From NCBI RefSeq assembly GCF_020382885.2, contig NC_058513.1:10201774-10265773 (forward strand): a stretch of 64,000 nt of DNA, given 5' to 3'. Source of the DNA: Scatophagus argus (lineage: Eukaryota > Chordata > Actinopteri > Scatophagidae). Position 1 is the stretch's first letter, and each line of letters starts with the position of its first letter. Of this stretch, positions 29,584 through 64,000 are shown one piece after another. The translations under genes and the position numbers were made by a program. The notes beneath the pieces were generated by a model. The model was given only the letters and a program-made list of their open reading frames with translations. It had not been told where the DNA came from and did not search any database.

Positions 29584-30912
<1,329 letters not shown>

Positions 30913-36599: not shown

Positions 36600-37265
36600 T
36601 TACCTTTGTATGAGCATGTGGATATTGTGGAAATTTCAATGAAAATACAAATCATGAGTTCCACACCCCATTTGGAATGATAATCACAACTCCAAATAAG
36701 TGTGGCACAGCTTTGATTCATGGCAGGAAACCATACATGCAGGGTGTGGCTCCTCCTGCCCACAATGTGCCAGAGAGTTGCCTACCACGGCCAAGTATGA
36801 GGTTATTAAAACAGCTGACGTGCCCTTCAGGTTGTGCCGTGAGCAGATGGACCCACCTCCATATTATTTTCTGTGTGGGGCAATGCATTGTGTCTGCATG
36901 TTTTTCATTCAAACTTTAGTATAACAGCAACAACTTTGATTCCTTAGCTGCTTTGTGCCTTGTTTTGTGATACAGGGCCCCTAAGTGATTACCATCTGTG
37001 AGTGAGTCAGGATCAATCCATCAGTTCAACCCTGTGATGTTGTTCTTCTGAAGCAACACAGTCACCACAGAGTTCAGAGAGACGAATCCTACCATGACAC
37101 TTGCCAAGTAGCTACTCAGTATGTACATTTCTTTTTGTCTGTTCATAAGGTCTGTATATAGATAGATAGATTATGGTTTATAATTTGGTTGTTCTCTTGC
37201 AGACAAAATGATGAAGCCTCTTTGATAGCCCTGTTTGAGATTTTGCTGGCTGCAAAATATCAGGA
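36600..37265 (+). pseudogene. Relic of a third alpha-tectorin-like gene (3' part)
   Basis: Three stretches match exons of the tectorin-like genes downstream, in the same order and strand. (1) 36616-36880 matches exon 13 (47207-47480 in copy A): CATGTGGATATTGTGGAAAT, then a translated frame reading CGSSCPQC, KYEVIKTADVPFRLCREQMD and PPPYY. (2) 37060-37105 matches exon 23: GAGTTCAGAGAGACGAATCC against GAGTTCAGAGGGACGTATCC. (3) 37188-37262 matches the last intron end plus the GPI-signal exon: GGTTGTTCTCTTGCAG is identical and ATGATGAA follows, but TGA and TAG stops and a small deletion break it. Exons 14-22 and 24 are missing between. It is a decayed, internally deleted gene copy, not a processed pseudogene, because intron sequence is retained. 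Confidence 0.8.
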
Positions 37266-38369: not shown

Positions 38370-39800
38370 AGATAACACACACAATCATACACAGTACAAT
38401 GTGCACTGAAATTCTCTTCTCCCTGCTACCAAAAATAGGCAAATAAAATGAGTAAGATTAAATATGATAAAATAGAAACCCTAAACCTAAAAATGTACAG
38501 TATTTACATCTAGTGCAGGTGGGGTGGCCTGGGGGAGGAAGCTTTTCCTCATCCTCTCAGTGTTGGTTCTCAGGCAGTGGAACCGACGGCCTGATGGCAG
38601 CAGGGAGAGGAGTGAGTGTCTGGGGTGATGGGGTTGCCTGAGGATCTTCTCAGCTCTCAACCTGCATTGTTTGGTGTAAATGTCCTGCAGGTTGGGTAGA
38701 GTTGTTCTGATCGTCCGCTCAGCTGAGCGGACTACCCTCCTAAGGACCGAGAGGTCCTGCTTTGTGCAGCTGCCCATCCATGTGGTGATGCTCCCACTCA
38801 AGATGCTCTCAGTGGTGCAGGTGTAAAAGTTCATGAGCACCTCGAGTGGGACCCTGAAGTCTCTGAGGTGTCTGAGGTGGAACAGACGCTTGCCTTCCTT
38901 CTTGACAGTCCTGTTAACGTGCTGAGACCAGGACAGGTCCTGTGTGATGGTCACACCGAGGTATTTAAAACTGTCCACCCTGTCCACCTCAGATGCACAG
39001 TGGACAGATGTCGCTCTGCTGCTTCCTCCTGTACTCCACAATCAGCTCCTTAGTTTTGTTGACGTTCAGCAGGAGGTTATTCTCCCAGAACCAGCTCTCC
39101 AGGTAGATGACCTCCTTCCTGTAGGGCTCCTCCTTGTCGTGGGAGATTAACCCCACCATGGCTGTGTCGGCTGCAAACTTTATGATGATGTTGCTGACTG
39201 ATGTGGACACACAGTCATGTACAGGGAGTACAGCAGGGGACTCAGCATGCAGCCTTGAGGGTATCCAGTGTTGAGGATGAGAGAGGATGAGCTATGGGTA
39301 CCCACTCGTACCACCTGTTGTCTGCAGGTTAGGATGCTGTGGATCCAACTGCACAGGGAGGAGTTCAGTCCAAGATCACACAGCTTAGTGACCAGCCTGG
39401 AGAGGACTATGGTGTTGAATGCTGAGCTGTAGTCCACAAACAGCACACATAGTTCACATAGTTCCCCATCCCAGTGTCCACGTGAGAAAGTGTCTTGTGC
39501 AGCATGAAGGTTATGGCGTCGTCAGTGGATCTGTCTGGGTGGTATACAAACTGAAGAGGGTCCAGGGTGGGGGGGCAGAGAGGAGGTGATGAATGTTTTG
39601 ACCAGCTTCTCAAAACATTTCATCACCACAGATGTGAGGGCTATGTGGTGATAATCATTAGGGTTACTGGGCTGGGCTGTCTTTGGGACAGGGACCACAA
39701 CAGACTTCTTAAAGCAGGTAAGAATCACACACTGTGAGAGGGAGAGGTTGAATATCATTAAAAAACATTGAAAAGTGTACAGTGCTGCAAAAAACAAGTT
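38370..39800 (-). mobile_element. Degenerate jockey/CR1/L2-like LINE, reverse-transcriptase part
   Basis: Minus-strand frames in the right order give a LINE reverse transcriptase: KKSVVVPVPKTAQPSNPNDY and [20 protein letters not shown] (39,400-39,700); [20 protein letters not shown] and the TGYPQGCMLSPLLYSLYM block (39,180-39,446); IIIKFAADTAMVGLISHDKE (about 39,180-39,130); then VDSFKYLGVTITQDLSWSQH and the C-terminal IRTTLPNLQDIYTKQCRLRA, LLPSGRRFHCLRTNTERMRK (38,487-39,041). The catalytic FADD box reads FAAD, so the enzyme is dead as well as frameshifted. The 3' tail near 38,370-38,450 is AT-rich. Clade assignment within the jockey superfamily is from memory and uncertain. Confidence 0.82.
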
Positions 39801-40192
39801 ATTGTTTTGTTTTGTTATTTTATCACATTTTATAAGAACATTACAAGATAGTTTTCTACAAGGTAGGGATTAGTCCTACTTCTATGGCAATGTAAATTAG
39901 CTAATGCTTTTCTACAACTGTGAGGAATATAATTAGGTGATGTAACGCACAATTAAATTCTTCTCTGGAACAGGTACCTTAACACTTTGACAGTATTCTA
40001 ACAATGCCTAAAGCCTTTGGTAGAATATCACACCTCCTATTTGTTTGTGCTGAATAGTGTTTGATAATCATCATTATTCTTCATCCACTGTGGAATGTTT
40101 ATTTCACTTGTTATGAGGAAGCAGTTGGCTTTAATCTGAATGCTCGTAACTGGTCAAACAACAGATTCACGGGACTGTGCCAAGTTTCGTGG
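39801..40192. other. Region upstream of tectorin-like gene A
   Basis: AT-rich sequence between the LINE and the TATA box of gene A; it should contain upstream regulatory DNA. No defined motif called. Confidence 0.35.
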
Positions 40193-40696: not shown

Positions 40697-43600
40697 ATGG
40701 CAAATCGAATCTTGTTGCCTGTGCTGCTTTTGGGGATGATAAGTAAGTATTCAGTTAAATCAAATTAAATTAAATTCACTCTTAGTTCTGTTGGTGCATT
40801 TACATAAAATAAATAAAGGATCTTTGTTTATTAACATTAGCAGTCTCTCCTGGCCAATTATATGTGTATGTTTGTTTTCATAGGTGGTGTGACTCCCCAG
40901 ATTTCAGGTAAGTTAACAAATAACAGTTGATGAAAAACATCTTAGTTCATTTACTGATTAATTTGACCAGGCCTGTCATGCAATAATTTAAAATAAAAGA
41001 AAAAAAAGCAGTTATTACTTACCACTGGGCTGCAAGTAATGCCACTGTTGCATTATAATATGTTTTTAACAGGAAGGAATAATTTTGAATAGAAGATGTT
41101 AGTTGCAACTTAGATCAAGTCAAATTTCAATGTGTTTATCCATTTTAAAGTTTTGTAAAAATAAATATATAAATAGTACCTGGAATGTGGTCCAAGGTTG
41201 ACTCAACCACACCTTTAACTACAGTAGTGTCATGTTTTACTGACACATAGTTGAAAAACAATAAGCCATTTCACAGCAGACATATTGCCTTTTAGAAGAA
41301 AAAGTAGAGGTGAAATAATTTCATAAATGATGTTCATTCTATCAAGTTTCATGGTAAGATATGACAGTGAGCCAGCATGCGCATATACAGGACACCTGCA
41401 TTAGCTCACCTAAATGGAATAAAGTCTTTTTGTTTGCAAAAAAAATCTGTGCCTTTCCTGCTATGACATGCCAAAATGTTGCTGTGAATAGTGTGTTTTG
41501 CTTGGTCAGTATGTTGGATTAGGTCATACACAAAGCATATTGTTGTACATGGGATCAAACATGGAAATTAAGTAATATGGATGATCATTCTATTTTTATT
41601 TAATATGTCATTTATTGTTCTTTTTAGTACTCTACCCAGTTGCTGGTACCACAAGCTCTCAATCAGATGATGGAAGTTCTCCCAGAATTACCCTGCAACG
41701 CAATTTTGTGTTCTTTGGACGTACCTATAACCAGATTTACGTATGTACACACCGTTTGAGCCAGCTGCCAAAACCATATCTTTTTAAAGGCTTTTAAAAA
41801 TTTTGGCATGTTTTGTGGAGGAATACAAATTTCAGTTCAGATAATATAAATGTATTGCAGTTATAGTGCAACATGATTATAAAACATTGTCGCAATAAAT
41901 ATTTTGATGGCATACAATTGTAAATGAATTTAGTTTGCGCATACTACTACTATTTATTGTTAATAAGAATTTGCTAATCTGTGTCCAGGTGAACCACAAT
42001 GGACACCTGACCTTTGACACGTCATGGAGTAGTTATGTACCTCAAATGTTTCCACTGCATGGATCCAGAGACATCATTGCTCCATTCTGGACAGATTTGG
42101 ATAACAGAGGAAATGGTCAGATTTACTACAATCAATACACCAGTGGCAGTGTCCTCCAACAGGCTACGCACGACATCAATCAGTACTTCCCAGGGCTGAA
42201 CTTCAATGCTAACTGGGTCTTTGTTGCAACATGGTATGAGGTGGCCTACTATCCAACCACTGGAACAGTAAGTCATCTGGTTCTAAATGTGAAAATACAT
42301 ATGATATGTATGTGTGTCTTACCTATTACAATTTTTACTATAAAAATCACGAAAGCAATTTTTTTCTTCCAGCGAACAACAGTCCAAGCGGTCCTGATCT
42401 CTGGTGGCCAGTACTCATTTGTGCTGATGAACTATGGGATAATAGCCGCGACTTCTCGCAATGTGCAGGTCAGTTACTGTTATATGTAGCTGCTGTGACT
42501 AAATACGACACGAAAACTGATAATGTTTTGTATATTTGAGAAACTCACAACCTTTTTCTAAATTAATGTTATTTATTTTTATTTTAGGCTGGCTATGACA
42601 CAATCAGCTCTGCTCACCATGTCACCATCCCTGGATCATTCTCTAGCTCTGCCACAGGCAGTAACTCAAATTTCCGTCTGAGCAGTAATGTCAATGTACC
42701 TGGCCGTTGGGCTTTCCGTGTGGACCATGGATCAACAGGCTGCAATTTCAATGGTAAGGCCAGACCAGAGGGTGGTCATCATGTTGAAGGGTAGCTTTCA
42801 CTTGCACTTGTGGTAAACTGTTGCCCACATCATTTCTGTGGTGCAGCGTGAGAACAGAGAGAAATCAATCCAGAGGGAGTAAAGTAACTGGTAGTATCTT
42901 GCCCAACACTGACCATAGGTACTTCTTTACAGTAATATTCATGTGTAACCACTACTCTATTGAGAGACCAACAAATCTGATGATAAATCTGTGATTGTTG
43001 CTGTACTATTAAATAATACAATTAAATAATGTTTTATATCTCAGCTACTAACAGCTCACTATGTTGTGAACTGAACAACTATTTAAAAAGAATTCTAAAA
43101 AGAATGGTAATGTTAAAGTAGTTATAGTTCTTATAAGTTGAAGTCATTCTATTATAAGGAATTTTACTTTTTTTCCTCAAAGGTCAAACAGTGCAGCTGG
43201 GTGACTCATTCTGGAGTGACAGTACATGTGCACAGAAGTGCACCTGTACCTCAGCAGGCCTGCAGTGCAACAACCAGCCCTGCTCCTTTTCCCAGATCTG
43301 TCGGCAAAGTACCTTTCAATTCTCCTGCCAGACTGTGCAGAGACGCACTTGCACCATAAGTGGTGATCCACATTACTACACCTTTGATGGCACAGTGTTT
43401 CACTTCCAGGGCACCTGCACTTATGTTCTCTCTGAGCAGTGTGGTAGAGGACTGCCTTACTACAGAGTAGAGGGAAAGAACGAGCACAGAGGCAGCACTC
43501 ATGTTTCCTGGACACGACTGGTCAAAGTGTTTGTCCATAATGAAACCATTGAGCTTGTCAAGGGACGTCGGGGTCAAGCTAAGGTTAGCAGTCATGACTA

Positions 43601-46600
43601 ATTTACTTTCCATTTACTGCAATATTTTTATTAAGTTAATATTTTTACAACTATGTCTTGCTTGCTGATGTGATGTCACAGGTTAACGGAAATTTTGCAG
43701 CCACTCCGATCTTCCTGAGCAATGGCACCATCCAGGTTTATGAGTCAGGTTTCTCGGTTATCATCACCACTGACTTTGGCTTGGAGGTGTCCTATGACAC
43801 AAATCATTATGTCAGGATCAGTGTGCCCTACACTTACCAGAATGCAACATGTGGCTTATGTGGAAACTTCAACAATCACCCTGAAGATGACTTCCGAACT
43901 CGTCAAGGCGAGCTTGTGAGCTCTGATGTGGTTTTTGCCAACAGCTGGCAAGCATCAGGGGACGATGAGCCTGGTTGTGGGACCCGATGTGGAGGTCTGG
44001 GGTGTGTTGCCTGCTCTGCGGTTCAGACAGCTTTATATAGCAATAATGCCCACTGTGGTATCCTCGGGAACAACACTGGACCTTTTGCTGCTTGCCATCA
44101 ACAACTTCCCCCACAGAACTTTGAGGACAGCTGTGTGTATGATCTGTGTGTAGCAGGAGGATACCAGCCAATTCTGTGCCAAGCACTGAATGCATATGCC
44201 AGTCAGTGTCAACAGAATGGTGTACAGCTGCCAAGTTGGAGGAGACAAGGCTTCTGTGGTATGTCTGACAACCAATGAACAATACTTAAACACAACATTT
44301 GGGTAAGAGGTCCATGATATCAAGGTCAGTGTTGTTTTCTGTTGTCTAGAAATTCCCTGCCCACCCAACAGCCACTTTGAGTCCCAAGGCACAGGATGTC
44401 CAGCTACCTGTGTCAATCCTAATTCTACCCAAAACTGCCCCCTCCCTACCCAGGAGAGCTGCATCTGCGATTCAGGCTACATTCTGAGTGCTGGAGTCTG
44501 CGTCCCTCTTGCTGACTGTGGCTGCAGCTTTGAGGGTCGCTACTACCGCTCTGGAGAAACTGTAATATTAGACGAGGACTGTGGGAGACGTTGCAGCTGC
44601 AGATATGGCTCCATGACCTGCCACTCCCATGGCTGTGGTCCACTTGAATCATGCAGTGTGGAGGAAGGAGAAAGAGGATGCAGGCCTAACAGCTATGCAA
44701 CTTGCTGGATAAGGGGCCCAGGGTCATATCACACATTTGATGGACTGACATACCAGTATCCTGGGGCTTGTCGATTGACCCTCGCCAGAGTGATGGGCTT
44801 GTCTAGTCATCCCCACTTTATGGTAACAGCAGAAAAAGTGCCCAGAGGCCAGCAGGGTTTTACCAGGTTGCTAAAGTTTGAGGCAGAGGGAACACAAATC
44901 TCCATTGAAATGGCAGGTAGTGGCATAGTTCAGGTAAGTGACTGAAAGTCTTTGAAAAGTTGATGTAACAAAAATAATCAAAGCTTTTGCTAAAAGTTAC
45001 AGTTATTTCTTGCATATCGCTTCTTTTCAATGACACATAAAAAAAAATTCTCCTCAAATAAAAAAAAATTCATGTTTGTGATAAAAACTGTAAATGTTGT
45101 CACTGAGTACATCTGAAATGACCTCTTTCAAATGCTCTTCAGGTTGATGGTCAGCGGATCAGACTACCATTCAGCTCAGCATCCAATCGAATCCAAATCT
45201 ACCACAGCAGCATTTACAGTATCATCCTTCGCACCTCTTTTGGTGTAACTGTGCAGACAGTTTGGCCTCACTTTGTGCGTGTCACTGCTCCTGGCATCTA
45301 CAATGGCTCACTAGGAGGACTCTGTGGTAATTACAACGGTCACCCACATGACGACTTCCGCACACCAAATGGTGTCCTGGTCAACAGCTCTCAGGCGTTT
45401 GGGGACAGCTGGCGAGATGGCTCCCTTGCTGCACACTGTGTAGAAAGTGTAAATCATAATTCTACAACAAATTACAACTCTACTGAGTACTGTGGCATTC
45501 TTGGCTCACCACATGGGCCATTTACCCAGTGTTGGGCCATGGTGGAGCCACAGCAGCATGTGGATACATGTGTGGAGATCATTAGAACTTCTAGAGATCC
45601 AGCATCAGCACTATGTGAGGCCCTACGAGATTATGCACTAATTTGTCAACAGATGGGCGTTGCCCTAGTAGACTGGAGGAATGCAACTCGTTGTGGTAAG
45701 CGGTTTATCTTGTTTTTTGGACTAAGTTTGGAATTGGTATTAAACTAGAGCAGCAACTGACCTAATCAACCTTCTTGTTTTTCTTTAGACCAAAACTGCC
45801 CTGCAAACAGCCATTATGAACTTTGTGAAAGCTCCTGTCCTTCTGCATGTCCAAGCCTCTCTTTCCCTTTCACCTGTGACACTGTGTGCCAGGAAGGTTG
45901 CCAGTGTAATGATGGTTTTATCCTAAATGGCAACCAGTGTGTAGCACCAACATCCTGTGGATGCTATCACCAAGGACGCTATCTGCAAAGTGGCGAACAA
46001 TTGTGGGATGGCGAAGAGTGTCAGAACTTGTGTACTTGTGATGGCAGAACTGGGGTAGTTCACTGTGTCCCCAACTCCTGTGGTCCCCAGGAGTCCTGTC
46101 GTGTGGTGGAGGGAGAGTTTGGCTGCCATCCCAGCCCTCATGGCACCTGCTCTGCCTCTGGAGACCCTCACTACCTCACCTTTGATGGCAAGGCCTATGA
46201 CTTCCAGGGAACCTGTCGCTATGTTCTGGCAACACTTTGTAACAGCACTGATGGTCTCCACCAATTTTCTGTGGAAGCTAAGAATGAGCCATGGAATGGG
46301 TCGCCAGTGTCAATCACAGCTGAGGTTTTCGTGAATGTGTGGGGCTATCAAGTGCATATGTCACGGGACAGCAGAGGTATGGTGCAGGTAAGTTGAACTG
46401 GCAGTGATATTCTTCATTCTGAGAAACGTTCGAATTCTTAAAAGGCCAGATTATGGGCTAAAAACAGTTTGTTTTGTATATTTATGTTTGTTCACTACAG
46501 AGTCAAAATACTGATTTTTCAAAAGTGAACTGTCCCGCTCTCGACATATCTGGGACCAAAATCTTGGTCTTTGTTCAAGGAATCCTCCTTCAAAATATAT

Positions 46601-49600
46601 CTATCTTATCAATCAGCATGCTGTGATAGGATTTATTAAGCTTTTAAATGTCATTTATCTGTCGCAAAAATGCATCAACAGTCAAATATAAAAAAAATAA
46701 ATGAAATGACTTGTTCTTTGTCTTTCGTTTTTCCAATGGTTAGGTAAATGGAATAACCAAAAATTTACCGTTTCTCCTAAACGGAGGTCACGTGTCTGTC
46801 TATGCAAGTGGATCTCGCACATTTGTCAGCACTGACTTTGGCCTGAGTGTCACATATGATGGATGGAGCACAGTGTCTATCTCCGTGCCTTCAAATTACA
46901 GGTTTAATTCAACTTGAAACCCAGTCACCCCTCTTCAGCCTGACTCTTGATTAGTTTCACTACCCTTTTTTTCAGTTATTTTTAATTGTATGATTTTTTC
47001 TTAATGTCATGTCATCTTTTATTTCTCATTGCATATCTTGTTTTCTTTTACATTTGTACTGTCTTATTATCAGCTTGTCAGTTATTCATAAATTGCACCA
47101 ACCTGTAGGAAAGTTCCAGTGCAAGTTTTGATTGATCGATTGACTGGGTGAACATAGAATTTCATCTGTGACACTGATTTTTTTCTCTAATTACTATTAT
47201 CAACAGTGGACAAACATGTGGACTTTGTGGAAACTTCAATGGAAATCAAAACGATGAGTTCCGCACCCCATCTGGAATGATAGTCACCACTCCCCATGAG
47301 TTTGGGGCAGCTTGGAAGGTAGCAGGAAACCATACATGCAGTGATGGGTGTGGCTCCTCCTGCCCACGATGTACCAATGAGCAGCCTGCTCGAGTCCAGT
47401 GTGGGGTGATTCAGGCAGCTGATGGGCCCTTCAGCTTCTGCCATGAGCAGGTGGATCCAGCTCCATATTTCAATGACTGCGTCTTTGACGTTTGTGTGTC
47501 GCAAAACAGAGGCCAAGATCTTCTGTGCAGAGCTCTTCAGGCGTATGTCAGTGCTTGTCAGTCTGCTAATGTTCGAATCTACCCTTGGAGGCAGAATACC
47601 ACCTGCAGTAAGTCAATGAGACAGTGCTGTTAAACTTTCCCACAAACATTTTTAAACAATAAAAGAGATAGTCTGAAATAAGTCTCTTATGTACATCCAT
47701 TATTTTTCTCATCTATGAAGGAATTGACTGTCCAGCCAATAGCCATTATGAGCTGTGTGGTACTGACTGTGGCCACACCTGTGCCAGCAGCATTGATGCC
47801 ACCTGTGAGCAGGTTTGCTCTGAGGGATGTTTCTGTGATGAAGGCTTTGTCAGAAGTGGGACAACATGTGTCCCTGTGGAAAGATGTGGCTGCCAGTATG
47901 ATGGATTCTACTACAATGTAAGTCATCTACCTGTAAATAAATAAAAAAACAGATTTATACATTTATACCTAAAAAAAATGATGTACCTCTTTTTCTTCCA
48001 TGCTCCAGGCTGGGGAGTCCTTCTGGACCGAGGGTTGTTCCCGGCGATGTGAATGCCATGCTCCCAATGACCTCCGCTGTTCTCATGCATCTTGCACTCC
48101 TGCACAAGAGTGCACCATCCAAAATGGCCAGCTTGGTTGTTATGATGCTATGTCCACTTGCACTGTTTGGGGGGACCCGCACTACATCACCTTTGATGGA
48201 GCACTGGCTCATTTCCAGGGCACATGTTCTTACATCATTACTGAGAGTGTGAGCCATGACACCAATGAGACCCAGTTTCAGGTAGTAGCCACCAATAATC
48301 ACCGTGGCAACAACCGTGTGTCATTTGTATCAGCAGTGGATATACACCTCTCAAATCAATCAGAGAGTACCTACATCAGGATTGGACAAAACAAGAGAGT
48401 AAAGGTAAGCTCTTAAATACTTTCCAGACTGATAAATTGCTATTTCTCTGGTGTAAACTTTGGAAACAACAAGTGCCTCCTCACCTCTTGACCTTCTCTC
48501 TCTCTAATCTCTCATACCTCCAGGTAAATGGAAACGAGGTATCTCTTCCGACCACTGTCGGAACCTTAGCTCAGATAGTGAGACAGGGAAGCTACATAGT
48601 GGTTAATGCCATTGACATGAGCGTCCAGTTTGATGGTCAGAGTACTTTGCTTATCAGAATGCACCAACATCGTCAAAACAGAATCACAGGGATGTGTGGA
48701 AACTTCAACAGTGACCCTACAGATGACAAAGTCTCGCCCAATGGCACACTGGCGCAAAATGACAATGACTTTGGACGCAGCTGGAAGGCACCCACAAGCC
48801 AACCAGGGTGAGCTGTCATGAAAAACAGTGTGGTTAATTTTATGGTTAAAGCAGCAGAGAGTAATGGCACCATGATATATCCTTTTCAGATGTGGATCCA
48901 CAGATGATGAGAGTGGTGGTGGATTGGACGGCTGTCCCTTCATTGAAGAATACTCTCAGCTCTGTAGTGTCATTACCAACTCTAGTGGTCCATTCAGTGC
49001 CTGTCACCTGCACTCTGACCCCCGGCCATTTTTCACTTCCTGTGTCTACGATCTCTGCCTCTACACCCCAGCCAATGGCATGCTGTGTTCTGCTGTCTCT
49101 GCCTACGAGAGAACCTGCTCTGTACTGGGGTTGAACGTCCCCGAATGGCGCTCGGCTCTGCTTTGCCGTAAGTTTGAACTGGGATAATTGATAACCAAGT
49201 TAATGAATAGTAAAATAACTCTTAACAGATTACACTTAACAGAACTTGCCACCTGTCATTATTGTGGAGACAAGCATTTTCAGTTACTTGTTTTGTTTCA
49301 CTTTCGTCAATTCCTGTCTCATCCTGTCCACACTATTTTCACAGCTGAGTCAGATCCTTGTGAGCCACTGGACTGCACAGAGTATGAGTGGTGTGGTGTG
49401 AAAGACGGTGTTCACGGCTGCTTCTGTGATGAACACCACCATCGGCCCAACAACGAGAGCTACGGTGAGGGCAGCTCACCTTAAAACATGGCTTTGTTTT
49501 GTAGATGACTGAAGTGACAATGGACACGTGTAAGATTATTGGTAGATGTAGCTTTTACACTAAAACAATTGGCAGGACAATAGGATCCTTTCAGAGTTTG

Positions 49601-52241
49601 GTTAGAGGAATCCTATGATTTGCATTTGTTTTCTTAGAAAATAAGAATTCATTTTTGAGCTGCTCTGAATGGCACCCCATGGCACCTGGCTCCTTCTTCA
49701 TAATAATTATGGCAAATGCTTCTTTTTGCCTTTACAAGCCTAAATATACACATACATATATTTTCTTTCACAGACTCGTCCATCACTTGTGTCAGTAGTT
49801 CAGGCACCATGTCAGTGTCGCGCTGCCAGCTTTTTGAAGCTGGCTTCCACCCCGGTGCCCTTCATCTCCGCGACGACTCCTGCAATGGAACTGTTCAGAA
49901 CGGACGACTGGTCTTCCGCTTCAATAATGACGAACACCTGTGTGGGACAGTTCTCACGGTACAGTCTACGGACTATCAACACAGTTGTAACAAGATTTCA
50001 AATGTAAATCTTCTCTTTAAGAATTTAATCAACTTACACCATTTTGTCACTTTAATTTTAAGAGCAATGGAACCCATTTCATCTATGAGAACACCATCCA
50101 GGGTGACGTGGATCCCCATGAAGGCCTAATCAGTCGCCAGAGGAACATTCATCTGCGTTTCTGCTGTGAATACCCCCTGGCCCAGGCTCTGTCCATGGCT
50201 GTGGGCATCAACCCTGTAGAGAGGTGACAGTAGCATCTCCCCTGCATGTTTTATTTGATTGATTTCTTGAATCAGGTGCTGCTAACCAAGTCAAAATGAC
50301 CACAGTCCTAAGTGATATGTGACTCTAGTTAGGTTTCAATGAAGACGTGCCAGTGAATTGTTCCTTTTCAACTGTATTGTTTGATTTTATTTATGGACAT
50401 AGAAGACAGCAAATCCAAGGAATAACATCTAAAAGTGAACACATACTTGTTTTCAGCATTGTCCCTGATGTCAGAAAAACAGTACAGAAGATCACACATA
50501 ACTTCCTAGTCACACTATGTATTGTCTATTTGCAGTATTGTGAGGAAGAAGCTTCCATCTGGCCAGGGACAGTATCATACGAGAATGATCCCCTACCAGG
50601 ACCCTGGCTTCCACTACCCCCTCACCAGTAACAGGAACGTAGATATGGAAATTGACGAGAGGCTTTATGTGGAGGTGCGGACAGATGGAGTCGATGAACG
50701 GCAGATCTCCACCATTCTGGACTCTTGTTGGGCCACGCCAGTCAACCTTGCTAACTACCCTGTTCGCTGGGATCTCATTATTGACGAGTAAAGAAGCTAT
50801 TGCACCTTGATTTTGCATACTGACTTCTTGTTCTTGATAAAAAAAAAATTACCTAGGGCCTCTCCATCCATCCTCTTTTTTTGTTTTTTGTTTACAACTC
50901 AACTGTTTTACCTTACTATATAGTCCATCTGATAATATTCAAACTTGTACAACTTCCCTTTCTTCCAGGTGTCCTAATACAGCAGATGGTACAGTACAGC
51001 TGATTCAGAATGGCATTTCCACTGTGGCCCGATTCTCATTCAGGATGTTCACCTTTACCAACTTTTCATCCATCTACCTGCACTGCCAGGTGCACCTGTG
51101 TCTCTTAAGACACAACAATTGTTCAGCTGTAAGTACTACTGTGTTTGTGTATGTAGCAAGATTACGTAGATTATCAATAGGTGCGTCAGCTAAGCCTCTA
51201 ATTTGTTTTATTGCAGCATTGCTACCCAGGTTACCACAGGCGAGTTCAGAGGGACGTATCCTACCATACCACAGACATCTCAATAGGACCAATAGCCCCA
51301 AGGCAACACAGCATGGGTAAACCTTCATTTTTTCATAATTTATGTACACAGAGCTTAATTAATATCAGAAGTTGCTCCACCAGATCTACCACTGCAAAAA
51401 ATGTCATGCTATGCCAGCTGCCACAATTTTGGAAAATCTAATTAAAAATATAGTAAAAATATGAAAAGGTGTGGCTGGCTGGGAATTTACAAGGGCAGTG
51501 TCGGAGTGCAAGTGAATGCAGCCAAGTCCCCTTATTATAACACTTTGGCTTGCTTCCTGTAAAGTAGCTTGCAAATATTGGCAATTTTTGGTTGTGGTTT
51601 TTTGGGCTTGTTTCTAAAGTGTAATTCCACCCCTACCTATATGTAGCTGTCTGCCAAACTTGAACCCTTTAAGAATGCTTGTACTGACGTATTTATTGAT
51701 CACTTTGAATGTTATTTCAGAAATCCATTGGGAAGCACCAAGTGGCAGGCATGATACAGAACTACCTAACTACAGTAAGTGTAAAACAACATACACTCAC
51801 TCAAACTTTCCTTAACATTCAGTGTTGAGTTGTACACCATTATTATAGTTTAGTGACCTGAACTGGCCCCATTAGGCTCCATGATGGACTTATGTTCGCT
51901 GAAAAAAGATGTAAATTTGGAAAAATGTCTGAAGATTTGGAAAGAATTTATAGTTTTCAAATGCCATAGTAATATCTATTCAATGCTTTACTTATATGCC
52001 ACAATAATGCAGTGTTTTCACTGTCACAGTGTCTTCATTTGAGGACAAAAACTGATGATTGATTGTGATAAGAATACATAAGTGATAAGTATATATTTCT
52101 GCAAGCCTTTAAGGTCTCTGGTTTGCACTTACACTTGGTTGTTCTCTTGCAGAAATGATGAAAGCAAGCAGTGCTTCAGCTCAGTTAACATCACTGGTGA
52201 CCCTGCTGGTCAGTTTGCTGATTGCCAAAATTCTGACCTAA
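40697..52241 (+). CDS. Alpha-tectorin-like protein, copy A (NIDO, 4x VWD-C8-TIL, ZP, GPI signal)
   Basis: Twenty-five coding exons close in frame (6,273 nt, 2,090 aa; human TECTA is 2,155): 40697-40742, 40884-40907, 41628-41740, 41989-42267, 42373-42468, 42588-42753, 43183-43583, 43682-44258, 44350-44933, 45143-45695, 45789-46387, 46744-46901, 47207-47607, 47721-47917, 48009-48404, 48524-48807, 48890-49167, 49345-49464, 49774-49958, 50063-50223, 50536-50787, 50969-51128, 51217-51316, 51721-51774 and 52153-52241. Domains: signal peptide 1-20; NIDO about 62-190 (APFWTDLD, FNANWVFVATWYEV); a small Cys-rich module about 239-285; VWD units starting near 298, 690, 1060 and 1440, each followed by C8 and, for the first three, TIL; ZP about 1760-2015; basic site RRVQR 2018-2022; C-terminal GPI signal LTSLVTLLVSLLIAKILT. 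This is the TECTA order, so a secreted, GPI-anchored, filament-forming apical matrix protein is likely. VWD2 lacks GDPH (CWIRGPGSYHTFDG) and the first Cys of CGLCGN. The site of expression is unknown, and it may be a TECTA-like paralogue rather than the orthologue. Confidence 0.92.
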
Positions 52242-54183: not shown

Positions 54184-54534
54184 TTATTCATTCATTCATT
54201 CATTTTCTATAACGCTTATCCATCACGAGGGATGGATCATCATCACGGCTGGAGCCTCTCCCAGCTGACTACGGGCAAGAGGCGGGGTGCACCCTGGACT
54301 GGTCGCCAGTCAATCGCAGGGCTGACACACAAAGACAGACGACCACACACACACGCACACACACACACACACCCTCACACCTAGGGGCAATGTAGAGCAG
54401 CCAGTTACCCTAATGTGCATGTTTTTGAGATTGTGAGAACATGCACAGAACTCCATACAGAAGGGCCCAGACTGGGATTCGAACCTGGAACCTATGAGGC
54501 GACAGTGCTAACCTCTGCACCACTGTGCCACCCC
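54184..54534 (-). mobile_element. tRNA-derived SINE
   Basis: Read on the minus strand it begins GGTGGCACAGTGGTGCAGAG with GGTTAGCACTG, an A-box-like tRNA head, and continues to the B box GGTTCGAATCCC (54474-54485, complement). The body runs towards the tail, which is an (ATGA)n tract (54185-54203). A (CA)n run (54343-54372) lies inside. The combination of tRNA head with both RNA polymerase III boxes, body and short-repeat tail is a SINE, and the body resembles a repeat very common in fish genomes. Confidence 0.75.
54343..54372 (+). repeat. (CA)n microsatellite inside the SINE
   Basis: About 15 CA units with one G interruption. Confidence 0.85.
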
Positions 54535-55033: not shown

Positions 55034-55606
55034 GTGCCCAGAAAAAGTTTCCACCTATTGGCTATTTTCCCATTTTAATGATTTTATAAAGTGAATCATA
55101 GTCAATATAACCTTAATGTCAAAATGAAAATGAAACAAAATGAATTCAGTAATGTCAATTCATTAAAATGTATAATGTAATATAAGTGACTGACCTAAAT
55201 TAGCAGAGGTCCAGCCAGTTGGCGCAAGTAGTCTAACAATTAGATGCACAATCACCTGAGTTCTCACCTCACCAATGTTTCTCAAGTGACTGTAGTATAA
55301 AGATTCCTGTGTCTGGAAGGTCCAGTCACTGGTTCATCAGTATTCCTGGCTACAATTACACCATGAAGACAAAAGAACACTCCAAGCAACTCAGAGAAGG
55401 GTAACTGAAAACTATAACTGGATCCAAAAATTTTCCAAGACATTTAATATCTCCTGGACTTCAGTTAAATCCATCATTAAGAAATAGAAGAAATATATAG
55501 AAACGTGTAAATCTGCCTGGAGCTGGCTGTCCTCTCAAACTGAGTGACCTTGCAAGAAGGAGATGGGCGAGGGAGGCCACCAAGACACCTATGACGACTC
55601 TGAAGG
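55034..55606 (+). mobile_element. Tc1/mariner-like transposon, truncated 5' part
   Basis: The stretch follows the layout of a common fish Tc1-like element: an AT-rich 5' end, then GGAAGGTCCAGTCACTGG, then a transposase start ATGAAGACAAAAGAACACTC at 55363 reading MKTKEHSKQLREG. A frameshift and stop follow at once. Later out-of-frame pieces match the helix-turn-helix region: NLPGAG and KLSDLARRRWAREATKTPMT (about 55505-55605). The similarity stops abruptly near 55606, so the catalytic DDE part and the 3' terminal repeat are absent. It is non-functional. Confidence 0.75.
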
Positions 55607-57162: not shown

Positions 57163-60100
57163 ATGGCAAGCCAAATCATGTTGTTCATGACTACTTTTGT
57201 ACTATTGGAGATGATAAGTAAGTACCTTTACTTTATTTTACTATAGCTTAGTGTAATTTTCAGTTCTCTCTAACTAATCATCCAATGGTGTTTGATTTCT
57301 TTGGAAATGAATGTTAATTTTCTGCTTATTTATTATTTATATATATCTGCTGTGTTTCATTTACAGGTGTGGTGACTTGTCAGGTTGTGAGTAAGTTCAG
57401 ATCTATTTGAAGATTCACATAAGCTCATAATATACTACTCAGACAGTCATTTATAGAATGCCTGTAAGATTAATTCTGTAATAATGATTAATTAAATTCT
57501 ATTACTACTACTACTAAATTAAATTCTGTCTTTGTTAAAGTTGTTTGTATTAATTTTTATTTAATTTATTTTTTAATTTTAACGTACAGTATGTGGATAC
57601 AAGGTTTGCAGAATATTGGCTTCTATCTAGCTCTGCTTTGGTCCAATACATGAGTTGTGTTCATTTTTTTGTGATGTACCCTTGCTTCCTAGGTCCCCTT
57701 TATCCAATATCTGGGACAGCAAGCTCCAAATCAGATGATGGAAGTTCACCACGGATTCCCCTGCAACGATCTTTTTACTATTTTGGACGAACATATAATC
57801 AGATTTATGTATGTTGAATTCAAAATAATGTGCATACTTTATATAGACTCTGAAAATGTTTAGCAGTCAATTTGTTATATCTACTTATTTATTTCCAGGT
57901 CAACCACAATGGACACTTGACATTTGACGGTCCACTGAGTTCACATTCACCTCAAAGGTTCCCACTAAATGGACCCATAGACTTCATTGCTCCATTCTGG
58001 ACAGATCTTGACAACAGACAAATGGGTCAGGTGTACTACAACCAATACACCAGTGGCAGTGTTCTTGAACAAGCTACTCGGGACATTAATGCCTACTTTC
58101 CGGCCATTAACTTCAATGCCAACTGGGTCTTTGTTGCAACATGGTATGAAGTGGCCTACTATCCAAATTCAGGAACAGTAAGTCATCTTGATCCAGTGTG
58201 ACAGAAAAATTGACCCCCTAAATAGTCAAAATTTTTAATACATACTGTATACCAATGTCTTACAAGTTCATTTAGTTTGAGGCAAAGAGTTTCTGAGTTG
58301 CAGTAGAGCTTAAAAATAGCAGTATACATAATTATGAAATAATCTTTTCCAGCGCACAACTGTCCAAGCTGTGTTGATCTCTGGAGGGCAGTACTCATTT
58401 GTGCTGATGAACTATGGGATAATAGCCGCGACTTCTCGCACTGTGCAGGTCAGTTACTGTTACATGTAGCTGCTGTGACTAAATACGACACGAAAACTGA
58501 TAATGTTTTGTATATTTGAGAAACTCACAACCTCTTTTTAAATTAATGTTATTTATTTTTATTTTAGGCTGGCTATGATACAATAAGCTCCATCCACTAT
58601 TTCACCATCCCTGGATCATTCTCTAGCTCTGCTACAGGCAGCAACTCAAATTTCCGTCTGAGCAGTAATGTCAATGTCCCAGGTCGCTGGGCCTTCCGCA
58701 CAGATCAAGCATCAAGAAGCTGCAATTTCAATGGTAAGATCCAGGTGATACTTCTTGTGTTCTTTTTCTGGAACTACATCACTACTGTGCCTTACAGTGT
58801 TGTGTTTCTGTGATTGAGTTTTGCAGTTTTGTGACCTAAAGCCAGCCCATTAGAGACCAAAACTTAACAAACATCACAATGTGCACATGGACAGAGTAGT
58901 TTGTGCTAGCAGGCCATGAATACTTCCCCCTAAAAATGAAGTGGTTACAATGTAATGGTGTCAGCCTGTTAAAATGTATTCCTTTAAGTGATATTTTCCT
59001 TTTATTCTTTTTAAGGTGAAGCAGTGCAACTGGGTGACTCATTCTGGAGTGACAGTACATGTGCACAGAAATGCACCTGCACTTCAGCAGGCCTGCAGTG
59101 TCACAACCAGCCCTGCTCCTTTTCCCAGATCTGCCAGCCAAGTGCCTTTCAGTTCTCTTGCCAGTCAGTGCAAAGAGGCACCTGCACCATAAGTGGTGAT
59201 CCACATTACTACACCTTTGATGACACAGTGTTTCACTTCCAGGGCACCTGCACTTATGTTCTCTCTGAGCAGTGTGGTAGAGGACTGCCTTACTACAGAG
59301 TAGAGGGAAAGAACGAGCACAGAGGCAGCACTCATGTTTCCTGGACAAGACTGGTCAAAGTGTTTGTCTATAATGAAACCATTGAGCTTGTCAAGGGACG
59401 TCGGGGTCAAGCTAAGGTTAGTAATTATGACTGGGCTTAAACTCAGCACTTTATGAATGAGACCAAATATGTCTTTGCCGCTCTTGACATACTTGCTGGT
59501 GTGCTTACAGGTTAATGGAAACTTTGCAGCCACTCCATTCTATCTCAACAATGCCACCGTCCAAGTTTATGAGTCGGGTTTTTCTGTGATTGTTAGCACT
59601 GACTTTGGCTTGGAGGTGTCCTATGACACAAATCATTATGTCAGGATCAGTGTGCCCTACACTTACCAGAATGCAACATGTGGCCTGTGTGGAAACTTTA
59701 ATGGCATTCGTCACGATGACTTCCAAACTCGTCAAGGCGAGCTTGTGAGCTCTGATGTGGATTTTGCCAACAGCTGGCAAGCATCAGGAGATGATGAGCC
59801 TGGTTGTGAGGTGCAGTGTGGTGGTCTGGAGTGTGCTCCATGTACTGAGGATCAAACAGCTTTATACAGCAGCACTGATCATTGTGGTATCCTCGGGAAC
59901 AGTTCTGGACCTTTTGCTGCTTGCCATCAACAACTTCCCCCACAGAACTTTGAGGACAGCTGTGTGTATGATCTGTGTGTAGCAGGAGGATACCAGCCAA
60001 TTCTGTGCCAAGCACTAAATGCATATGCCAGTCAGTGTCAACAGAATGGTGTACAGCTGCCAAGTTGGAGGAGACAAGGCTTCTGTGGTATGTCTGACAA

Positions 60101-63100
60101 CCAATGCACAATACTTAAACACAACATTTGGGTAAGAGGTCCATGATATCAAGGTCAGTGTTGTTTTCTTTTGTCTAGAAATTCCCTGCCCACCCAACAG
60201 CCACTTTGAGTCCCAAGGCACAGGATGTCCAGCTACCTGTGTCAATCCTAATTCTACCCAAAACTGCCCCCTCCCTACCCAGGAGAGCTGCATCTGCGAT
60301 TCAGGCTACATTCTGAGTGCTGGAGTCTGCGTCCCTCTTGCTGACTGTGGCTGCAGCTTTGAGGGTCGCTACTACCGCTCTGGAGAAACTGCAATATTAG
60401 ACGAGGACTGTGGGAGACGTTGCAGCTGCAGATATGGCTCCATGACCTGCCACTCCCATGGCTGTGGTCCACTTGAATCATGCAGTGTGGAGGAAGGAGA
60501 AAGAGGATGCAGGCCTAACAGCTATGCAACTTGCTGGATAAGGGGCCCAGGGTCATATCACACATTTGATGGACTGACATACCAGTATCCTGGGGCTTGT
60601 CGATTGACCCTCGCCAGAGTGATGGGCTTGTCTAGTCATCCCCACTTTATGGTAACAGCAGAAAAAGTGCCCAGAGGCCAGCAGGGTTTTACCAGGTTGC
60701 TAAAGTTTGAGGCAGAGGGAACACAAATCTCCATTGAAATGGCAGGTAGTGGCATAGTTCAGGTAAGTGACTGAAAGTCTTTGAAAAGTTGATGTAACAA
60801 AAATAATCAAAGCTTTTGCTAAAAGTTACAGTTATTTCTTGCATATCGCTTCTTTTGAATGACACATAAAAACATTCTCCTCAAATAAAAAAAAATTCAT
60901 GTTTGTGATAAAAACTGTAAATGTTGTCACTGAGTACATCTGAAATGACCTCTTTCAAATGCTCTTCAGGTTGATGGTCAGCGGATCAGACTACCATTCA
61001 GCTCAGCATCCAATCGAATCCAAATCTACCACAGCAGCATTTACAGTATCATCCTTCGCACCTCTTTTGGTGTAACTGTGCAGACAGTTTGGCCTCACTT
61101 TGTGCGTGTCACTGCTCCTGGCATCTACAATGGCTCACTAGGAGGACTCTGTGGTAATTACAACGGTCACCCACATGACGACTTCCGCACACCAAATGGT
61201 GTCCTGGTCAACAGCTCTCAGGCATTTGGGGACAGCTGGCGAGATGGCTCCCTTGCTGCACACTGTGTAGAAAGTGTAAATCATAATTCTACAACAAATT
61301 ATAACTCTACTGAGTACTGTGGCATTCTTGCCTCACCACATGGGCCATTTACCCAGTGTTGGGCCATGGTGGAGCCACAGCAGCATGTGGATACATGTGT
61401 GGAGATCATTAGAACTTCTAGAGATCCAGCATCAGCACTATGTGAGGCCCTACGAGATTATGCACTAATTTGTCAACAGATGGGTGTTGCCCTAGTAGAC
61501 TGGAGGAATGCAACTGGCTGTGGTAAGCAGTTTATCTTCTATTTTTTGGACTAAGTTTGGAATTGGTATTAAACTAAAGCAGCAATTGACCTAATCAACC
61601 TTCTTGTTTTTCTTTAGACCAAAACTGCCCTGCAAACAGCCATTATGAACTTTGTGGAAGCTCCTGTCCTTCTGCCTGCCCAAGCCTCTCTTTCCCTTTC
61701 ACCTGTGACACTGTGTGCCAGGAAGGTTGCCAGTGTAATGATGGTTTTATCCTAAATGGCAACCAGTGTGTAGCACCAACATCCTGTGGATGCTATCACC
61801 AAGGACGCTATCTGCAAAGTGGCGAACAATTGTGGGATGGCGAGGAGTGTCAGAACTTGTGTACTTGTGATGGCAGAACTGGGGTAGTTCACTGTGTCCC
61901 CAACTCCTGTGGTCCCCAGGAGTCCTGTCGTGTGGTGGAGGGAGAGTTTGGCTGCCATCCCAGCCCTCATGGCACCTGCTCTGCCTCTGGAGACCCTCAC
62001 TACCTCACCTTTGATGGCAAGGCCTATGACTTCCAGGGAACCTGTCGCTATGTTCTGGCAACACTTTGTAACAGCACTGATGGCCTCCACCAATTTTCTG
62101 TGGAAGCTAAGAATGAGCCATGGAATGGGTCGCCAGTGTCAATCACAGCTGAGGTTTTCGTGAATGTGTGGGGCTATCAAGTGCATATGTCACGGGAGAG
62201 AAATGGTGTGGTTAAAGTAAGTAATTAACATCATGTCTGACACTTCTCACCAGATCACTGCCATGCATAATTTAAATTATGATTAAATCTAATTGGCGAA
62301 GTCTTTGACAGTTCTAATTTTTTCCTTTTTTACCATGAGTAAGTGTATAATTAGAGAAAATACAGTACAATAAATACACCTCATCTTAATTTTATCAGAT
62401 TGTCAGAAGAACAGTATCAGAAAATGTACAGAGCACACCTGATTTTTCTTTGAACATTCTCTTTTAGGTGAATGGTGAAAGTAGAAATTTACCAGTTCTC
62501 TTGAATGGAGGTCAAGTGTCGATATATGCAAGTGGATCTCGTGTATTTGTCAGTGCTAATTTTGGTCTGAGTGTCACCTACGACGGATTTAGCACAGTGT
62601 TCATCTCTGTACCCTCAAACTACAGGTATCTGACATTCACTTCACTTAAGTTCAAACTGTATTGCTTTGATATGCTTGAAAATCACATTTTCAATTATGT
62701 AAAAAGTCCCTCAATAACAATCTGATTCATGACACTGAACTTAGTATTTAATTATCGTCAATAGCGGACAGACATGTGGACTTTGTGGAAACTTCAATGG
62801 AAATTCAAATGATGAGTTCCGCACCCCATCTGGAATGATAGTCACATCGCCAGATGAGTTTGGGAGAGCTTGGAAGGTGTCAGGCAACTACACCTGTAGT
62901 GATGGATGTGGCTCCTCCTGCCCACAGTGTACCAATGAGCAGCCTGCACGGGCCAAATGTGAGGTGATTCAGGCAGCTGACGGGCCCTTAAGCTTCTGCC
63001 ATGAGCAGGTGGACCCAGCTCCATATTTCAATGACTGCGTCTTTGATGTTTGCGTGTCGGGCAGTGAGGGCCAAGATCTTCTGTGCAGGGCCATTCAGGC

Positions 63101-64000
63101 GTATGTCAGTGCCTGCCAAGCAGCTAATGTTCCAATCTTCCCTTGGAGAGAGAACACTACCTGCAGTAAGTCAACCAGTCAAGTTATCATGTCTCTATGT
63201 AAATAATATTGAAATACTGTTTGACAAATAGATTTGTAGAGAAAAGTAATTTGTTTGCCATTTTTTCTTCACCCATTAAGGACTTGACTGTCCAGTCAAC
63301 AGCCATTATGAGCTGTGTGGTACGGACTGTGGTCACACCTGTGCCAGCAGCACAGATGCCACCTGTGAGCAGGTTTGCTCTGAGGGATGTTTCTGTGATG
63401 AAGGTTTCCTGAGAAGTGGGACAAGGTGTGTCCCCATAGAAAGGTGTGGCTGCCAGTATGATGGATTCTACTACAATGTAAGTCACTTACCTGCAAATAC
63501 TAAATAGTCTACTATGTGACAAAAATGATTGCCATTGTAGGAAGTTTCCAGAGCAGTTAAATTCTCCATCATAAGATTATAAACTGCTGTGAAATGTATG
63601 GTCAAGGTCATGTTCTGTGTCAAAAAGTTTACCATGGCAATAATTTTGAGTAGATTGCTGTCATGCTGACTACTGAGATGTTGTTTTTTCATGTAAGGCT
63701 GCAGCTGTCATTGTTTTCTCTGCATTCACACTGCATCCAGTAATGTTTGGTCAATTGTCAAAGTCTATGTGAGCATAGTTTGAATGGTTTGTATATTATC
63801 CATGTTAGAGACAGGGCAACTGACACTATCTAAGCATGCATTGTTTTCATCTGTGTATTTCCCATTGTATTATATCTGTTGTGGAAAAGGTCTATTGCTT
63901 GGTTTGGATTGACTATGTGATGTGTGTTTTTCTTCCATGCTCCAGGCTGGTGAGTCCTTCTGGACCGAGGGTTGTTCCCAGCGATGTGAATGTCATGCTC
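57163..64000 (+). CDS. Alpha-tectorin-like protein, copy B (3' end outside window)
   Basis: Fourteen complete coding exons and the start of a fifteenth match copy A exon for exon: 57163-57217, 57367-57390, 57693-57808, 57899-58177, 58353-58448, 58568-58733, 59016-59416, 59511-60087, 60179-60762, 60970-61522, 61618-62216, 62468-62625, 62765-63165, 63281-63477 and 63946-64000+. From exon 4 on, every complete exon has the same length as in A. The first 1,420 codons cover a signal peptide (MASQIMLFMTTFVLLEMI), NIDO, the small Cys-rich module, VWD units 1-3 with C8 and TIL, and the start of the module before VWD4. VWD2 has the same altered GPGSYHTFDG motif as A. VWD1 has TFDD in place of TFDG, a B-specific change. 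No frameshift or premature stop is visible, so it is probably functional. The missing part should encode VWD4, ZP and the GPI signal. Confidence 0.9.

Follow-up and report, generated by a model that had tools for sequence, protein, structure and literature searches.

The window, by which we mean the whole stretch of 64,000 nucleotides from Scatophagus argus that was analysed, contains a pair of tandem paralogues, gene A and gene B, which lie on the same strand at a spacing of 15.83 kb (Table 1). Copy B runs past the end of the window and was completed by adding 40 kb of downstream DNA, the first 100 bases of which overlap the window. Exon lengths agree between A and B for all 20 modelled exons, apart from a 3-base difference in the first of them, and both frames are open over 1986 aligned codons, with an amino-acid identity of 90.2%. 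Pairwise dN/dS is 0.18 over the 941 unconverted codons, i.e., those outside the homogenised stretches described below; to judge from the sequence, this value and the open frames fit what is expected for two genes retained under purifying selection. A relic of a third copy at 36617-36894 corresponds to the e12 region of both genes, with 49-66% protein identity, is composed of two pieces in different frames, and looks frame-shifted. The 103.9 kb examined hold two full copies and this one exon relic, and no further exons of a third copy were found there outside A and B at E 0.001. Also present on the minus strand of the window are a neurexophilin exon upstream of the pair (29584-30321; Pfam E 1.2e-95) and, at 38487-39869, overlapping open frames which, judged by eye, resemble a broken LINE reverse transcriptase. 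Two pieces of the spacer between A and B (54247-54424 and 55324-55496) match C23, from which one of the comparison loci below was taken, at 78-84% and are perhaps dispersed repeats.

Table 1. Coordinates of the gene pair and of the stretches of high similarity between its two copies (window numbering, continued into the added downstream DNA for copy B)
Feature	Copy A	Copy B	Strand	Evidence and remarks
Gene A	41628..51128		+	Exons e2-e21 modelled (20 in all; the gene's first and last lie outside the model); exon models and continuous frame
Gene B		57693..64000 in the window, on to extended coordinate 66973	+	Tandem paralogue with the same 20 exons
Main homogenised tract, copy A	44076..46368		+	Alignment, intron identity, permutation, HMM
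Main homogenised tract, copy B		59905..62197	+	Alignment, permutation/HMM segmentation
Substitution-dense interval within the tract	45658..45850		+	10/21 substitutions in 193 bp
Second young tract	48664..49136	64592-65064	+	Permutation score 25.3, 0/1000; intron identity
Short homogenised stretch (near)	43350..43588	59183-59421	+	HMM; 3 differences in 239 bp
Short homogenised stretch (far)	42409..42598	58389-58578	+	HMM and intron; 4 differences in 190 bp
Homogenised stretch, probably older	47990..48387	63927-64324	+	11 differences in 398 bp
Identical 88-bp stretch, only suggestive	43768..43855	59597-59684	+	HMM, without permutation support

Pfam domains were read in pieces of gene A, and gene B was matched to A by codon-by-codon alignment. 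Gene A carries a NIDO domain, four VWD-C8 modules with a TIL domain behind the first three, a TILa domain, and ZP-N plus ZP-C. The occurrence of NIDO, VWD and ZP in one chain is what we take to be the alpha-tectorin layout; the exon model of gene A joins NIDO, several VWD-C8 modules and ZP in this way, and the predicted products of A and B are alpha-tectorin-like in domain layout. Tandem VWD modules are common to A, B and alpha-tectorin (TECTA), and also to the fish zonadhesin-like (ZanL) genes described in PMC9275260. As defined in that paper, a true zonadhesin has MAM, then mucin, then tandem VWD domains and lies between Ephb4 and Epo; its section on fish genes gives no domain list (PMC9275260). 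Of these features A has the tandem VWD modules, with NIDO before and ZP after them, and there was no Pfam match to MAM or mucin in the pieces of A scanned from e3 onward; a MAM domain would lie upstream of e3. When the region between the midpoints of the second and third VWD was compared by sequence with solved structures, those of the IgG Fc-binding protein scored best. Two D-module pieces had zero matches in NCBIfam, as expected from a library of prokaryotic families.

A 2.3-kb segment of this pair is nearly identical between the two copies. The first-pass annotation had placed it at A 44072-46366 and B about 59901-62195; the tract is real and those edges are good to 4 bases. It is composed of most of the C8 and the TIL/TILa of module 1, the whole VWD-C8-TIL module 2 and, at its end, the first half of the third-module VWD, with three introns inside. 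The copies differ by 21 substitutions over 2291 aligned sites (0.92%) and by two 2-base indels, both intronic; the first-pass annotation had put the visible differences at 15-20. Nine of the coding changes are synonymous and four non-synonymous, and 14/21 substitutions are transitions; the synonymous bias, the transitions and the restriction of indels to introns look like real evolution after conversion. The introns inside the tract are 97.8%, 99.0% and 95.7% identical, in agreement with their description as almost identical introns 8, 9 and 10 (the exons are numbered e7-e10 here, which differs from the annotation, and the first exon is outside our model). Exon dS is 0.00 in e8, 0.03 in e9 and 0.045 in e10, the last figure including the divergent end past the edge, against 0.28 in e7 (mostly outside the tract, part inside) and 0.97 in e11.

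Alignment of A with B for local identity, the check that had been proposed, found a bounded tract and not uniform identity along the pair. On the left, the exon just upstream does differ at many sites (43/220 at A 43856-44075). On the right, the final 19 bases of the exon (46369-46387) hold 8 differences, and the intron after e10, intron 11 of the annotation, is indeed unrelated, at 45.7% identity versus 45.4% in shuffled controls. As first quoted, the right-edge sequence lacks the four bases that follow TCACGGGA in either copy, an omission that leaves the conclusion unaffected. The main tract edges were identical under all four HMM settings, with rates set by hand. When exonic differences were shuffled within codon-position classes, a scheme in which each codon position has a single rate throughout the gene, the tract scored 122.3 versus a maximum of 11.8 among 1000 permutations, and the longest identical exonic run was 624 versus a permutation maximum of 143. 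Chance is excluded as the cause of the tract.

The segment encodes a complete VWD-C8-TIL module, which would accord with its being held identical by strong purifying selection or by a conserved element embedded in it. Protein-level selection is nevertheless insufficient, because the introns and synonymous sites are homogeneous too: three consecutive introns almost equal the coding sites in similarity, and synonymous divergence rises in the neighbouring exons e7 (partly in the tract) and e11. Against an embedded element, Rfam gave no family at gathering score in 41600-64000, and we assign this explanation next to no probability.

The drop in similarity that had been claimed outside the tract holds at both edges but not elsewhere, as other homogenised stretches occur on both sides. 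Three of these have permutation support, and the HMM adds weaker ones. The second young tract has 2 substitutions in 473 bp and a fully identical 82-bp intron. For the short stretch nearer to the main tract, the exonic segment 43350-43686 reached a permutation fraction of 0.009 of 1000, and for the probably older stretch the segment 48143-48387 reached 0.022. This older stretch is labelled "old" under the three-state HMM, where it extends to 48526. The farther short stretch has a 119-bp intron that is 97.5% identical, its exonic part being below the permutation threshold. Weaker segments were A 48460-48526 (6/67 sites different) and 49419-49488 (2/70) under the two-state HMM, and 47718-47939 (20/222, at one of two switch rates only) and 49273-49488 (25/207) as three-state "old" segments. 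The density of differences in the probably older stretch (11/398) exceeds that in the left part of the main tract (9/1580; Fisher p 0.0006), and the farther short stretch (4/190) compares with that same part at p 0.04, these counts covering all site classes including amino-acid changes while the neutral-site confidence intervals overlap. The conversion events probably differ in age. In exon e14 (48009-48404) the copies differ by 3.5 synonymous versus 10.5 non-synonymous changes, a dN/dS of 0.90 from small numbers, versus 0.18 over the unconverted codons, possibly reflecting faster protein change following an older conversion.

Divergence outside the tract is also graded and not uniform. Nineteen introns were compared. 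Identity is 95.7-100% in five of them, of which three belong to the main tract and two to other stretches, and nine of the remaining 14 are within 0.10 of the shuffled control. The other five are 59%, 63%, 69%, 71% and 77% identical versus 42-45% in the control, i.e., 0.17-0.34 above it; four of them border or partly overlap an HMM stretch, and the e18-e19 intron does not. These intermediate introns are consistent with older or partial conversion, and uneven constraint is also possible.

Near-identical paralogous stretches are where assemblers err, and the reads of one copy filling part of the other would give a false tract of this kind. The assembly, however, comprises 570.7 Mb in 48 contigs and the window is without N, the 21 substitutions show a synonymous bias, and several stretches of differing divergence lie along the one pair. 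A 1-kb probe of tract DNA found two places in the fish's own genome, A and B (best candidates scored, 2 of 2), with no stray haplotig. An artefact is in our judgement quite unlikely.

The substitutions are unevenly spread within the main tract. When they were placed at random, ten of the 21 fell within a span no longer than the observed 193 bp in only 6 of 20,000 trials; the number ten was picked after the data were seen, which makes the true significance of the clustering weaker. Neutral divergence in this dense interval is 0.063 (95% CI 0.025-0.121), versus 0.012 (0.005-0.024) in the tract to its left, with no overlap of the intervals, and 0.017 (0.002-0.059) to its right, where the interval overlaps that of the middle. 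The dense interval probably dates from an earlier conversion than the segments on its two sides, and the main tract is probably composite. The tract had been taken as one event; the uneven spread and the other stretches point instead to several. A composite origin of the 2.3 kb is also favoured because most experimental estimates of conversion tract length lie between 50 and several hundred bp, according to the review PMC3924818, which cautions that overlapping events fuse into long apparent tracts.

The first-pass annotation had left the choice between recent conversion and unequal crossing-over. Tandem copies in the same orientation are a substrate for the latter, and the pair itself must stem from a duplication, so that a duplication followed by a deletion could be imagined as the source of the shared segment. 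When two tandem copies cross over unequally once, the junction is one-sided and the copy number changes. Here many paired events would be required to leave divergent flanks on both sides of several stretches, and the 103.9 kb examined hold only the two full copies and the exon relic. As the sole cause, crossing-over is not supported, given the divergent, copy-specific sequence on both sides of the tract and of the other stretches, and is very improbable; recent conversion is the better supported of the two.

Parts of related loci from C9, C17, C23, C14 and C13 (matches on C7 and C18 were left out) served as a limited control, using blastn with E up to 1e-8. The inverted related pair on C17, an imperfect control for a tandem pair, had 6/6 matching pieces at 74.8-81.1% identity; the C9 locus had two internal pieces at 76-81%, the C23 locus one 276-column piece at 84%, and the C14 locus no matching pieces under these settings. 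The exception was C13, with a 334-column repeat pair at 96.7% (12599676-12600009 and 12601321-12601651, inside or beside another D-module locus), one 206-column pair at 92.2% and, at 81-88%, a further four that are shorter; these may be exons, introns or plain repeats. The fetched loci thus showed no second tract that extends over kilobases, and in view of C13 shorter homogenised pieces may exist elsewhere in the family. A protein search of the genome with exon e8 gave a best match outside A and B of 42% identity, the match counts being lower bounds. Neither this search nor the 1-kb probe yielded a close copy beyond A and B by which the conversion might be polarised; the relic upstream matches the e12 region only, outside the main tract.

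The tract is a bounded segment with identity far above that of its flanks, its identity reaches into introns and synonymous sites, and copy-specific sequence is kept on both flanks, as in the absence of a crossover. On these sequence features, recent interlocus gene conversion is very probably the best explanation. Repeated non-crossover conversion between tandem paralogues on the same strand fits best because the homogenised patches have copy-specific flanks on both sides and both frames are open. There was no sign of GC-biased conversion, as tract GC3 (0.46) and intron GC (0.32) fall within the ranges of the background segments (0.39-0.60 and 0.29-0.40, respectively). A and B stem from an old tandem duplication. 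The mechanism of repair, and the number and order of events, that we infer would be as follows. Much later than the duplication, non-crossover recombination between misaligned copies would have used the neighbouring paralogue as a template for break repair, so that parts of one gene were copied into its neighbour. Most likely at least two young conversions, beside or across an older one, add up to the main tract, with smaller conversions, probably of differing age, on both sides of it. If rates are equal, the last conversions are a few percent as old as the duplication, because neutral divergence in the tract is 0.0205 (95% CI 0.012-0.032) versus a dS of 0.56 over the 941 unconverted codons.

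The process of conversion is already well known, and A/B is a new instance of it; a title search of the open-licence literature, with the terms used, found no conversion in a tecta-like or zonadhesin-like fish pair. Interlocus (ectopic) conversion between the duplicates GOT1p1 and GOT1p2 of Tigriopus californicus is read as ongoing in PMC3728101, and that pair resembles A/B in that strongly and weakly diverged regions persist side by side between the two duplicates, whereas the study compared several populations and A/B is known from a single genome. Human VWF, like A/B, is a gene with D modules that undergoes conversion, there with its pseudogene and in a limited region, the D3 and A1 domains (PMC3967998). 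The VWF conversions run from pseudogene to gene and cause disease, whereas A and B both have open frames; four of the six cases in PMC3967998 have tracts of 95-248 bases, and the A/B tract is at least nine times longer.

A more speculative and rather doubtful reading is that conversion between A and B is continuing and is filtered by selection. Modules in the interior, chiefly the second and a large part of the fourth, would be kept alike, and the start with NIDO, the last part of the third VWD and the ZP region would be held apart as islands in which each copy has a function of its own; the islands may instead simply be too divergent to recombine. The neutral differences of about 1-2% in the tract are low enough that some conversions may still be polymorphic in the population. 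As it stands, A/B offers a clean case from nature of concerted evolution that acts in patches along a pair of large multi-domain genes. The 2.3-kb segment is unfit for dating, for tree placement or for easy distinction of A from B by short reads: exons e8-e10 would imply a very recent duplication, whereas most of the remainder shows an old one.
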